DNA of 64,000 nucleotides from Symmetrospora coprosmae (Eukaryota; Basidiomycota; Cystobasidiomycetes; Symmetrosporaceae). Positions 9,622 through 53,086 of this stretch are shown here, one piece after another. Below the pieces are notes generated by a model, which saw only the letters and a program-made list of their open reading frames with translations, ran no database searches and had not been told where the DNA came from. Where the stretch lies: positions 496,001 to 560,000 of the forward strand of contig VUYT01000010.1 in NCBI GenBank assembly GCA_008802785.1, read 5' to 3'. A program made the position numbers and the translations under genes. Each line of letters opens with the position of its first letter. Position 1 is the stretch's first letter.

Positions 9622-12600
9622 ATGTCGTTCCAGAAAGGTGGGCCTGAGCTGGCGAGGGAAGAAGAGAGCTCCATCATGCATGACGGTCGCAAGCTGCTGA
9701 TCCATACACGGGACAATTCGACAGAGCAAAACGATGAGCTCTGCATCAACACCATCCGGTGAGCAGATGCTCCACATCAAGATGACGCTGGACGCATCCT
9801 CATGTGCGGCTATGACTGACTTCCGCTTGATATCGTCCCGCACAGAACCCTCGCGGTCGATGTCGTGAACAAGGTGCGCAGTTCGATAGGCGCCCAGCAT
9901 CAGCTGAAGCAGTCGCACCGGTGTCAAAATGCTCGCAACAGATGCAGGAAACTAATGGCTGTACTGCTTTACCTCCTCCTCAGGCCAACTCGGGTCACCC
10001 GGGAGCCCCAATGGGCATGGCACCCGTCGCCCACCTGCTGTGGAGCCGATTCCTCAAGGCCAACCCGAAGAACTCGAGCTGGATCAACAGGGACAGGTTT
10101 GTCCTCTCGAACGGACACGGATGTGCCCTCCAGTACATTGTCCTGCACCTCCTCGGGTACAAGCTGTCGATGGACGACCTCAAGCAGGTGTGTGCGACTG
10201 TAGAGGGCTTGCCGCCGTCGGAGCATGAGCTGACAGTATGTATGTCACCGCGCAACAGTTCCGCCAGCTCGACTCCATCACGCCCGGCCACCCGGAGCTC
10301 GGCGTCACGGACGGTATCGAGGTCACCACCGGCCCGCTCGGCCAGGGTATCGCCAACGCTGTCGGACTCGCCATTGCCGAGGCACACATCGCTGCGACCT
10401 TCAACAAGCCCGATCTCGAGATCATCGACAACTACACCTACTGCTTCCTCGGTGACGGATGCCTCCAGGAGGGTGTCGCGTCCGAGGCGTGCTCGCTCGC
10501 CGGGCACCTCCAGCTCGGCAAGCTCATTGCCGTGTACGACGACAACAAGATTACGATCGACGGCGACACGGCCGTCTCGTTCACCGAGAATGTCGAGATG
10601 CGCTTCAAGGCGTACGGCTGGCAGGTCCTCCACGTCGAGAACGGCGACAGCGACCTCGAGGCAATGTACAATGCCATCGCCGAGGCGCAGAAGGAGACGA
10701 CCAAGCCCACGCTCATCAACCTCAAGACGACCATCGGCTTCGGCTCCAAGCTCCAGGGCACCCACGGTGTCCACGGCAACGCCCTCAAGCCGGACGACGC
10801 CGCGCACATCAAGACGCTCTTCGGATTTGACCCGGAGCAGTTCTTCGCCGTCCCCCAGGGCACCACCGACACGTACAAGGCCATCACCGAGCGAGGTCAG
10901 AAGGCAAACGCAGACTGGGACAAGCTCTTTGCCCAGTACAAGGAGAAGTACCCCACAGAGGCGTCCGAGCTCCAGAGGAGGATCGACGGAAAGCTCCCCG
11001 ACGGGTGGGAGAAGGCCCTCCCCACCTACAAGCCCACCGACGCTGCCGTCGCCTCCAGGAAGCTCTCTGAGATCGTCATCACCAAGCTTGCCGATGTCAT
11101 CCCCGAGTTTGTCTGCGGTGTGAGTGGTCGCAGGCGTGACACGTGCGCTGGTGGCAAAATTTCTGACCGTCCCATCTCCATGTTCCAACTCCTCTGCGAC
11201 ATCCGACTGGCCGCCACTGCACACTAATGGATATGTGCAATCCATCTGCATCACTAGTCGGCCGATCTGACCGGCTCCAACCTCACCCGATGGAAGAGCG
11301 CCACCGACTTCCAGCCGCCCTCCACCAAGCTCGGAGAGTACGCAGGACGCTACTTCCGATACGGCGTTCGAGAGCACGGCATGGGAGCCATTGCTAACGG
11401 CATGTCTGGTGAGTTCTGCTCGTTGTTCCGGCCGCTGGGGCCGTGATTTCCGCCACCGGGCCTCCAGAGGGTCCCCAAGGCTTCTACTGACTTCCAGAAC
11501 CTCCCCAAAGCATACGGCAAGGGTCTGATCATCCCTGGAGTATCCACTTTTGCCAACTTCACGTTTTTTTGATTCCTGCTCTGTGGTGTTTCTGGCGTCC
11601 GCTGACCTTCCTGTCATCTTTTGTAGGAGCTACGCCGCAGGAGCCATCCGATTGACCGCCCTCTCACACCAGCGAGTTATCTGGGTCGCTACGCACGACA
11701 GCATCGTACGTGTGGTCTCCGCTCGCCTTGTGCGCGCTTTGCGCGACCTCGCAGGCCCGGTATGTCAGGCTGAGCCGCCCTTTGCCCCCCGCGCCTCCCA
11801 AACAACAGGGACTCGGCGAGGATGGGCCTACGCATCAGCCGATCGAAGTACTGGCCCATTGGAGAGCCCTGCCAAACTGTCTCGTTTGGAGGTGCGTGCA
11901 GTCCTCGGTTCGCGTCTGGCGTGCCTGGCTGGGTGGCGGACGCCCTTCGGCGGCCTTAAGAGGAGCGAGCGGGCTTATACTGACGAACGCCTTTGCTATC
12001 ACACTCTCCACTGCACACAACGTCCTGGCTTGCACATCCGCCCTTTCCGGCTCTGTATGTGACGTCCCGGCGTTGCCGCAGGCCTGCCGATGGTGAGTCC
12101 GAGGCTGTCGGCTACCAAGAGGACCACACGAGCTGCTGCGCATGCTAACAACGTCCTACACGTACAGGCAACGAGACTTCGGCATCGTACTTGCTTGCCT
12201 TGAATTCGCACGCTCCGTCCATCCTCGCTCTTTCCAGGCAGAACCTCGTGAGTCCCGTCACCTCTCGCCTTGCTTCCTAATGGAGGTACTGACTTCCTTC
12301 CATCGTACGCAGGCCCAGCTCGAGGGCAGCTCCATCGAGAAGGCTGCGAAGGGTGCCTACGTCCTCCGAGATGTCGAGGGCAAGGCCGACATCACCCTCG
12401 TCTCCACCGGCTCGGAGGTCGCCATCGCCGTCGAGACTGCCATCCTTCTCGAGAAGGAGGGCAAGAAGGCTCGAGTCGTCTCCATGCCGTGCCAGGAGAT
12501 CTTCTCCATCCAGTCGCAGGAGTACAAGCTCTCGGTCCTGCCCGACGGCCACCCTATCCTCTCCATCGAGGCCATGAGCACCAGCGGATGGTCCAAGTGG

Positions 12601-21190: not shown

Positions 21191-21249
21191 TGCATCATAT
21201 TCCATTGGACAACATCTGGCATGCATCATATTCCATTGGACAACATCTG
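21191..21249 (+). repeat. 31-bp-period tandem duplication carrying a CCAAT box
   Basis: A 28-nt block beginning TGCATCATATTCCATTGG at 21191 recurs identically at 21222, giving a 31-bp period. Each copy contains CCATTGG, whose reverse complement holds CCAAT, so relative to SIN3 (minus strand, ATG at 21023) there are two CCAAT boxes about 180-225 bp upstream of the start codon. CCAAT boxes bind the Hap/NF-Y complex. A regulatory role is inferred from position and motif only. Confidence 0.7.
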
Positions 21250-49390: not shown

Positions 49391-52300
49391 ATGGCACGCA
49401 AGACTCGCTCCGCATCCGCCAACACCGAGCAAGAAAGCAAGCAGAAGAAATCAGCTCGACAGGCAACCGATACGACTACCAGCGGCAACGGTAAACGGAA
49501 AGCGAAAGGCACAGCGGCTCCTACTAGCCACGGCAAACCGAAGAAAGGGAAGAAGGACGACGAAGCCTACCGTCCGCCTCCCTCTGTGGGCGCGTCGATA
49601 AGGCAGTCCGCGAGACTAGCGAGCACCACTCTGCCGGCTACGCCGGACCTGCCTTCGACCACTTCGAAAGATCGTGCACTCTCCCATGCAGATCCGCAGC
49701 TCTCGCCGCCCCAGAAGACGCCGCCCCAGAACACGCCGCTAGCCCGTGTAGATGAGTTAGCTACAGCTCTCGCCGCCCCAGAAGACGCCGCCCCAGAACA
49801 CGCCGCTAGCCCGTGTAGATGAGTTAGCTACAGCAGCAGAAAGCGGCGGTAGTGATGATAAGGCAAGAATCTGCGCAGGCAGGAAGCCAGAGTCGCGTAC
49901 CATCGCGCAGTCCGACTACCTGCCCGATCGAAAAGCGGGCCTACGCGCCGGGACGCTCATGGGGTCACAATCGAGGTCATGTCCTGGCTCGAGCGCTAAT
50001 AAGGCAGTCAAGGTCGGAACACCGGGCGTCAGCAGAGTCACGGAGCGACGGCTCGATGCGACATCAACAGATGAAGACACGAGCAGCAGCGACAGCGCGA
50101 TAGGGGAAAGCAGAGTGACTCGAGGCTTGGCGCAATCGGCGAGTCAAGCACAGAAAGGCGAGAAGGCCGGCATGCATCAAGGCTCAAGACGGGAAGCGAC
50201 ACATGAAGGAAGTTCCACGCACATCTCTGCCCTCCCTTCCCGGAAGAAAAGGAAGATGGAGCAGGCAGAGGGCAATAGCTCAGCGAAGAAGCAGAGGTCA
50301 AAGATTCGGCCAGGCGAGACCGGCGAAGCCACAGAGAAGGGGAATGCGCCTGCTCCAGCAGCTACAGAGGGAGCCGGGCCTGACAGCCCCAAGAGGCGCT
50401 CCGACAATCCGCCCCTGTTCCGGCCTCTATCGGAATCGTCCAGAGCCTCGTCTGCCCCAACTTCGCATGCGGGACTGGCTCCTTCTACTGCACTCACTCC
50501 AGACTCGCGCTTTTCAAAACAAGCCGAGCTCGACAAGGCTCTCATCCTCGCCATGCCTGCACCGTCGGATCCCGATCCTGCACCGCTGGTGCAGGCGGTC
50601 ACAGCTCAACAAGTTTACCCTCGACCGCTATCGAACATCACAGAGATCGACGAGCTACTGACGGACGAAGAGTCCGCTCAGCTTTCAATGGCCGCTTTGT
50701 ACCCGGAACGACAGCATGCAGGAGCGGCGGCGGGCGCGGCTACGGGTGCAGGAATGAGCGAGACCGCCGCAACAGAGCGGGAATACGTGCTCGAACCAAC
50801 ATACGATCTGCAGGAGGATCCGACTTTCCTGGCCATGCCTGATGTAGTTATCGCCAGCTCGCACACTCAGGCTAACCGATTGCCGAGCGGCACTACTGCG
50901 GTCAAGGATGCATCTCCTCAGGCCAGGCAAGGGACACCTTCTGTCCCTCCCATCAACAACCCAGACTCGCGGGCAGAAAACACGGCCATGTGCGCTGCGG
51001 AAGACCTGCAAAATATCACAGGAGCTCCGGATGGCTCACTCCCCCGTAGCGATACAGTGCTCTCGTTGCCGGGCACGGCACCAACAGCGTTTGTCTCGCC
51101 AAGTGCAGCAGGCGGCACGCCACTTCGCCGCTCAAGTCGCGCTTCCGGCTCCGGCGGGAGCGTCATGAAGGTCGGAAGCTACAGCGAGACCCGACCCCGT
51201 AAACGGAAGCACGCGGAGGAGGTCGCCGCCAACACTGAGACCTCGTCCTCTCGGACCACGCTGCAGTCCGCCGGTGCAAAGAAGAAGTCCAAGACCAGCG
51301 TCTCTCGACCCGGTGCTGAGGGTGAGCATAGACCTGCATTCAAGCTGCCTGTCGGCGGCGGAACCGCTGCTATCGCTCGACAGATGGCGAAGGTGCCCAA
51401 GCATGTCAAGCGCAAGTTCCGATTGTCGAGCTTTAAGCCGACGAGTAAAGACCAGCTATCAGCACCTCTGCAATCCAATCTGCTCGCTCCAGGTAGCTGG
51501 CTCAAGCCAACAACTTCCGGCGACCCGGAAAACCGCGAAACACCAGCTTTTTTCCTAGCCTGCGGCAACACTCCTTTCGACACGTCTGCCTTGCGCTTCT
51601 CCTTCGATCTCGACAACGATGGCAATCCCAACCATCGCAGGGTCGTTCAGCCACGGGAGGGTCAGCTCGAAGATGATGACGCCGATAACACTGCTGCCAT
51701 GGTGGTCAGGAAGGCCCAGCAGCGCATGCTCCTGTCGCTGAAGGAAATGAGGATCCGCTCCACATGCTATTACGTGCCGCTCAGATGATCTCACTCGATA
51801 AGCCAACCGCGGCAGACGACACTGCCGAGACAGGATCGAGGATCAGACGACGGGGCCTGCTCAACCCGCTGCCCGTTTTCGACAAGGATTGTCGTGTGTC
51901 GGATGCTTGCAGGCTAGAGCTGCTCGCCGATGTCGCCGCGATGCGAGAGCGCCTACCCAGACCGGCCCGCACCCCTTCTGCTGCGAGCGGCTCGTCAACA
52001 GCACAGGATTTAACCGCAGTGCGAAACGATGCAAGCTTCGCTGCGGTCATCTCGCCAACTGTATGCGACCAGGACAGCATGATCGAGAAACAAGCGGAGG
52101 AGCAAGGAGAGGAACAGATCCAGCAGGAGTCCGCGCAGCAGTCGGAGCCGTCGGTGCCGCAGCAAGCGACCCCAGATCGTCAGCTTTCACCGGACGATGA
52201 GCTTGCATCGCCCCTGCACAACGGTGATACGCTCGATATTGCCCACGCAAGGAAGGATACCGAAGCTGTATTGAACGCAGACGAGCAGACCGATCAGTTG

Positions 52301-53086
52301 ATGTTGGAGCATACGACTTCGCTCATGAAAAACTCCAACTACGAAGACGACGGGCCGATCTGTCCCAGCTGCCCTACGGAACCTGGCCTGCCGGATGGAC
52401 ACGAGCACAGCGAGTGCTACATAAACGCAATGCAAGACGCATCTATCGGAGAAAGCGAGCAGATGTCAATGGAGGAACCCTTGCCGCTTCCAATCAAGCA
52501 CAACCGCTCTCCCGCCCTTCCGACCGTCACGCCCGACCTTCCTGGATCGAGACCGCGCAGAGCCCGAAGACCCGTATTGCAGGTATCGTCACCGCACAAA
52601 TCGCCAACAAGCGCTCATACGGGACCCTACGTACCACCGTCGCGCGGATCCAGCTCGTCGAGTGGCTCGAAAGGCAGAGCCAGCCGCCGGCGCAGCTCAT
52701 CAGTCGTGCCACGCCATCGATCTCATGCTCCCTCGCCCATGCCCTCCTCCTTGTACCGCAATGAGAGCGACATGATCGGACTCATCAGATCCTTCAAAGC
52801 GGATCCAGGGCATTTCAGCAAGAGGCTGGTACGAAACGCCAGGACCTCTCACAGACCTAGAATGCCGGTCACAAGGTCCGTTGTAGCGACAGCTTCAGTG
52901 AGGGCATCGAGCCCTCCCGCCTCAGATGGTGTCGAGTCGAAGAAGAAGGCTGGAGCGGCAAAGGAGAAAAAGCGCAGCCAGAAGTCGCTGAAGTCGGCGG
53001 CATCGTCCCTGCCTGGCGGGATCAAGTCGAGTATGGGAATAACGGCCGCATCCAAGAGCAGCGGATCTCGGAGGACAGAGCTCTGA
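49391..53086 (+). CDS. Long disordered basic nuclear-type protein, frame interrupted by tandem duplication
   Basis: The start is MARKTRSASANTEQESKQKK. The protein is rich in Ser, Lys, Pro and Glu with several basic clusters (KKGKKDDEAYRPPP, SRKKRKMEQ, RPRKRKHAEEVA), suggesting a nuclear protein; I recognise no domain. The first frame runs to 49822 and the second (to 51788) lies in another frame. The shift is caused exactly by a 67-bp tandem duplication (49697-49830). With a single copy the two frames are continuous and stop-free. Splicing with 88-nt or 76-nt introns inside the duplication would restore the frame. A further change of frame at 51702-51784 can be explained by an intron (GTGGTC...GCTCAG). 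The last part contains CPSCPTEPG and ends SGSRRTEL. The gene may be functional, alternatively spliced or decaying. Confidence 0.55.
49697..49834 (+). repeat. Exact 67-bp tandem duplication inside a coding region
   Basis: Bases 49697-49763 and 49764-49830 are identical and are followed by CAGC, the first four bases of the unit. Because 67 is not a multiple of three, the reading frame changes after the duplication. The identity of the copies and the four-base homology at the ends indicate a recent slippage or repair event, or an assembly artefact. Confidence 0.95.

Follow-up and report, generated by a model that had tools for sequence, protein, structure and literature searches.

What does an exact tandem duplication inside a coding region of Symmetrospora coprosmae (contig VUYT01000010.1) stand for: an intron at its birth, a frameshift in a broken gene, or an artefact of assembly? 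All three options were raised by the original prediction, which preferred the first. We analysed the locus within a window of 64,000 nucleotides (the whole stretch of DNA considered here; coordinates are those of its forward strand). The duplication, the break in the reading frame and a single-copy sister are all supported, while the nascent intron is not. We consider it probable that the locus carries a recent 67-bp tandem duplication, flanked by microhomology, which arose in coding sequence and shifts the frame of an orphan fungal gene.

The duplication and the reading frame

The two copies of the 67-bp unit are located at 49697-49763 and 49764-49830, with zero differences between them. Identity at period 67 extends over a 71-base run spanning 49697-49834, as detected by an exact period scan with which TRF agrees, so the two identical copies announced by the original prediction are indeed present in the assembled sequence. 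The CAGC microhomology that it described at the flanks was recovered as well: the motif occurs at 49697-49700, at 49764-49767 and, for the third time, at 49831-49834.

Such a repeat is unusual in the sequence examined. Across 264 kb (the 64-kb window plus contig 1 up to 200 kb), a scan of periods 12 to 1,499 found, above period 28, no further exact tandem repeat that reaches two full copies. Two near-tandem repeats come close, one with a period of 31 and a run of 28 (window 21191-21249) and the other with a period of 30 and a run of 29 (contig 1, 126924-126982). The longest exact tandem run of the 264 kb after that of the 67-bp unit consists of four exact copies of a 14-bp unit (9649-9704 of the stretch labelled L004). 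The absence of any comparable repeat from the rest of the 264 kb speaks for a recent duplication event, and equally for the main rival explanation, which is an assembly or consensus artefact: in the strain the unit would be single (or mixed with the double form), and the second copy would have been introduced during assembly. We regard this as possible but unlikely. When 67-bp units are drawn at random from the same sequences (200,000 draws), their flanks are identical over 4 bp or more with a probability of 0.020, so the CAGC identity modestly favours a microhomology-driven event. The same low chance counts against the artefact, as we would not expect an overlapping join of contig ends to predict by itself an extra 4-bp identity at the flanks. 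The locus displays three features that characterize a microhomology-flanked tandem duplication, namely exact direct copies, end identity (CAGC) and a single-copy sister. A hairpin was also considered as a cause of the duplication and is not supported, because 192 of 200 shuffles fold at least as well as the DNA of 49697-49767.

The unit length of 67 bp is not divisible by 3, so the duplication shifts the reading frame. The open reading frame (ORF) that starts at the ATG at 49391 leaves the native frame past copy 1 and ends at a stop at 49820-49822, confirming the predicted frame break. This upstream part of the gene (49391-49822, from the ORF list and the coding score) comprises 143 codons, the last 17 of which are out of frame. 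The downstream part lies in a different frame (ORF 49761-51788), whose first ATG past the copy junction is at 49959, and the upstream frame contains 25 stops up to 51740. Hexamer coding scores per codon step reach 0.163 for 49391-49768 and 0.225 for 49836-51308, each in its ORF frame, and are negative in the remaining frames and on the opposite strand for both flanks. Training of the hexamer model used 100 long ORFs from the same 264 kb, two of them from this gene; the downstream ORF 49761-51788 was among them, and the upstream ORF was too short to be included. The positive frames of the two flanks are those that a single copy would join. As far as can be read from ORFs and coding scores, only the single-copy state yields a coherent coding frame over 49391-51788. 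That the duplication disrupts an otherwise coding frame is also a point in favour of the artefact.

Under our preferred explanation, the 67-bp duplication would have arisen between two 4-bp CAGC repeats, through replication slippage or microhomology-mediated template switching. The two-copy state would be derived and would be an allele of a living strain, beyond the assembly alone. Its product would be truncated, with 126 native residues followed by 17 out-of-frame ones, and would presumably have lost its function, making inactivation of the gene in the strain or culture probable.

A useful comparison comes from the fission yeast gene ssp1. For ssp1, passages of a review (PMC13207564) describe tandem duplications that are mediated by microhomology and create a premature stop. 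The duplication reported here resembles them in its short direct copies, its microhomology of a few bases, its location in a coding region and its premature stop, as far as the relevant passages go (PMC13207564), but it concerns another fungus and another gene, and is known from assembled sequence alone. The duplication is real in the sequence as given and would be an ordinary kind of mutation.

A public protein with a single copy of the unit

A protein search with ORF 49761-51785 as a query retrieved a single match among 7,993 scored candidates. This match, P0001, is an ENA protein of 618 aa from a 3,671-base contig. It starts at the ATG of the window (49391) and 616 of its 618 residues match the window, in three blocks of 126 (49391-49768), 97 (49836-50126) and 393 residues (50130-51308). 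Within the downstream ORF 49761-51788, the match to P0001 thus covers 49836 to 51308 and contains a single internal substitution, at 50127-50129. The last residue of P0001 (618; window 51309) differs from the window exactly where the match stops, which may reflect the end of the contig or a change in that allele.

P0001 reads through the region with exactly one copy of the 67-bp unit, joining the coding frames of the two flanks. It was predicted that removal of one copy would make the gene continuous, which is what this protein displays, and P0001 also supplies a single-copy reading of the kind to be sought in related strains. None of the 72 possible 67-nt excisions of the two-copy DNA has GT-AG, GC-AG or AT-AC ends, so canonical splicing of two-copy DNA cannot give the P0001 reading. 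The DNA behind P0001 very probably holds one copy, as deduced from the protein, and we infer a single-copy sister allele, known from one protein on a short contig. A near-identical single-copy protein is equally what the artefact would lead us to expect. When the truncated two-copy form was used as a query (49391-49819), no public protein was found among 223 candidates; this is a weak negative, because the protein library gave only one sequence of this gene.

P0001 could conversely have lost a copy through recombination from an old two-copy state. Recombination between tandem copies can return a locus to a single copy, as stated in part of the review mentioned above (PMC13207564). However, a coherent frame across 49391-51788 is obtained with one copy only, and the copies have not diverged at all; we therefore give this scenario the smallest probability of all those considered. 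If the duplication exists in a living strain, it adds one more recent microhomology-flanked duplication in fungal coding sequence for which a single-copy sister is known, and knowledge of this sister makes reversion and subclonality accessible from reads.

Other relatives of the gene were sought. Among bacterial and archaeal genome contigs, 245 stretches match a peptide pattern of P0001, as do 80 stretches in viral contigs, and none of them was confirmed as a relative. P0001 has no Pfam match at E 0.01 and no relative in PDB at E 1. The two ORFs 49391-49822 and 49761-51788 have no Pfam match at E 1; a third ORF, located downstream (51689-53086), matches only MauJ, at E 0.25 and below the MauJ cut-off, and a protein search with its 51689-53083 interval found no homologue among 7,989 scored candidates. 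In the genome itself, which is compact (20.05 Mb, 77 contigs) and probably basidiomycete to judge by its introns and genes, the locus occurs once at the DNA level, and the sole second match at the protein level is the duplicated peptide itself. Scans of the window for tRNA and Rfam families gave no matches. Read from its sequence, the gene product looks lineage-restricted, lysine- and serine-rich, and possibly nuclear.

Splice signals around the duplication

The preferred reading of the original prediction was intron birth by tandem duplication, through an intron of 88 nt (49746-49833) or 76 nt (49748-49823) restoring the frame. Both intervals do have GT-AG ends and leave the frame open to 51788. 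However, the acceptor end of the 76-nt interval is GATGAG and not the TTAGCTACAG named in the original prediction.

These candidates were scored with a splice model trained on 40 introns of this genome, which are candidates selected from sequence by a rule combining a GTRNGY donor, a YAG acceptor and CTRAC. Training introns are 53-125 nt long (32 of 40 within 61-80 nt). Their donors include GTGAGC, GTGCGT and GTGAGT, their acceptors are CAG or TAG, and a branch motif (CTGAC in 37 of 40, CTAAC in 3 of 40) lies 13-30 nt upstream of the acceptor. All 40 have G at donor position +5, although this G and the branch motif are present by construction, as the selection rule demanded them. When no donor rule is imposed, 41 of 46 branch-selected candidates still have G at +5 and two have A; when no branch rule is imposed, 43 of 59 donor-selected candidates have CTRAY near the acceptor. 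The preference for CTGAC itself is 37/40 in the set chosen for CTRAC and 25/59 in the donor-selected set without a branch rule (stretches L004-L023 and the window). Leave-one-out scores of training introns range from 15.4 to 27.6.

Against this minimum of 15.4, the 88-nt candidate scores -1.1 and the 76-nt candidate -7.3, and 30% and 59%, respectively, of 20,000 random GT-AG pairs score equally well or better. Both have A at donor +5, the base found in two of the 46 branch-selected candidates, and both are devoid of CTRAY; neither was judged to be an intron. A few signals do point the other way. The acceptor of the 88-nt candidate is good (6.7), and among loose candidates GTAGAT (the donor of the 76-nt candidate) is 2.2-fold enriched (4 of 77 sites) and the GTGTAG donor 1.4-fold (3 of 90 sites), these enrichments resting on small counts. 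Of the latent donor, branch site and acceptor that imprecise gain calls for, the sequence model recognizes none but the acceptor of the 88-nt candidate.

An open frame can be restored by 115 GT-AG pairs (30-400 nt, donor in 49560-49822), which at first sight favours an intron. The best pair joining the frames across the duplication, at 49586-49766 (181 nt), reaches 13.2; it is nevertheless below the training minimum of 15.4, longer than all training introns and picked as the best of many. As a control, 888 native coding windows, each 138 bp long, were examined: a GT-AG pair of frame-changing length is present in 82% of them (stops past the junction being ignored), one that scores at least -1.1 in 46% and one that scores at least 15 in 1.4%. 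The presence of pairs of frame-changing length is thus no evidence for an intron, and calls for caution wherever such pairs are met in coding windows of this genome.

According to parts of two papers (PMC3443670, PMC4974935), classical intron gain by tandem duplication requires AGGT within the duplicated segment. There is no AGGT inside the 67-bp unit, nor any canonical exact excision. In principle, gain can also be imprecise and proceed through latent sites, for which there is published precedent, as a passage of the first paper indicates (PMC3443670), and the second mentions, in the portion concerned, a potato case with an activated cryptic donor (PMC4974935). Unlike intron gain by tandem duplication as these sections present it (PMC3443670, PMC4974935), our locus has no AGGT, no CTRAY and weak donors, and is seen as DNA only. 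A nascent intron gained imprecisely through latent splice sites is accordingly very unlikely, and a newborn intron is not supported by the sequence model. We give an equally slight chance to a duplication that is strain-specific and still segregating, with weak latent sites (e.g., 49586-49766 or 49746-49833) being spliced in a few transcripts and partly rescuing the frame. If true, this would be an intron caught at birth, with the single-copy allele still in the species.

A second frame change downstream

The gene shows another irregularity about 2 kb downstream of the duplication. Near 51.70-51.76 kb, the coding signal shifts to the frame of a further coding-like ORF (51689-53086, from the ORF list and the coding score), reached via a second frame change at about 51700-51760. 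None of the GT-AG pairs joining the two frames reaches the quality of the training introns. The best one, 51661-51722, has a score of 13.4 against the minimum of 15.4, and the first frame keeps its coding signal across it. The phase shift is opposite to that of the duplication. The second frame change does not compensate the duplication, because the 25 stops of the upstream frame precede it. Decay of the gene, local sequencing errors or a weak intron at this position may each explain the change.

A further frame change without a good intron in the same gene is what locally poor sequence would produce, and it adds to the case for an assembly or consensus artefact. A scan for frame changes nevertheless retained 57 cases, of which 45 have a joining GT-AG pair scoring at least 14.0 and 39 one scoring at least 15.4. 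The sampled sequence is thus not generally frame-broken, which argues against the artefact. No pair of at least 15.4 was found in 18 cases and no pair of at least 14.0 in 12, two of which are in this gene; seven of these 12 have an ORF overlap above 200 nt and are shadow-frame-like. For the ten located outside this gene, the best pairs score 3.6 to 13.9, a range that includes the 13.2 obtained at 49586-49766, which weighs further against a nascent intron there. Finally, a GT-AG pair at 51322-51383 has an intron-like score of 19.5 within a positively coding stretch, and is probably a decoy.
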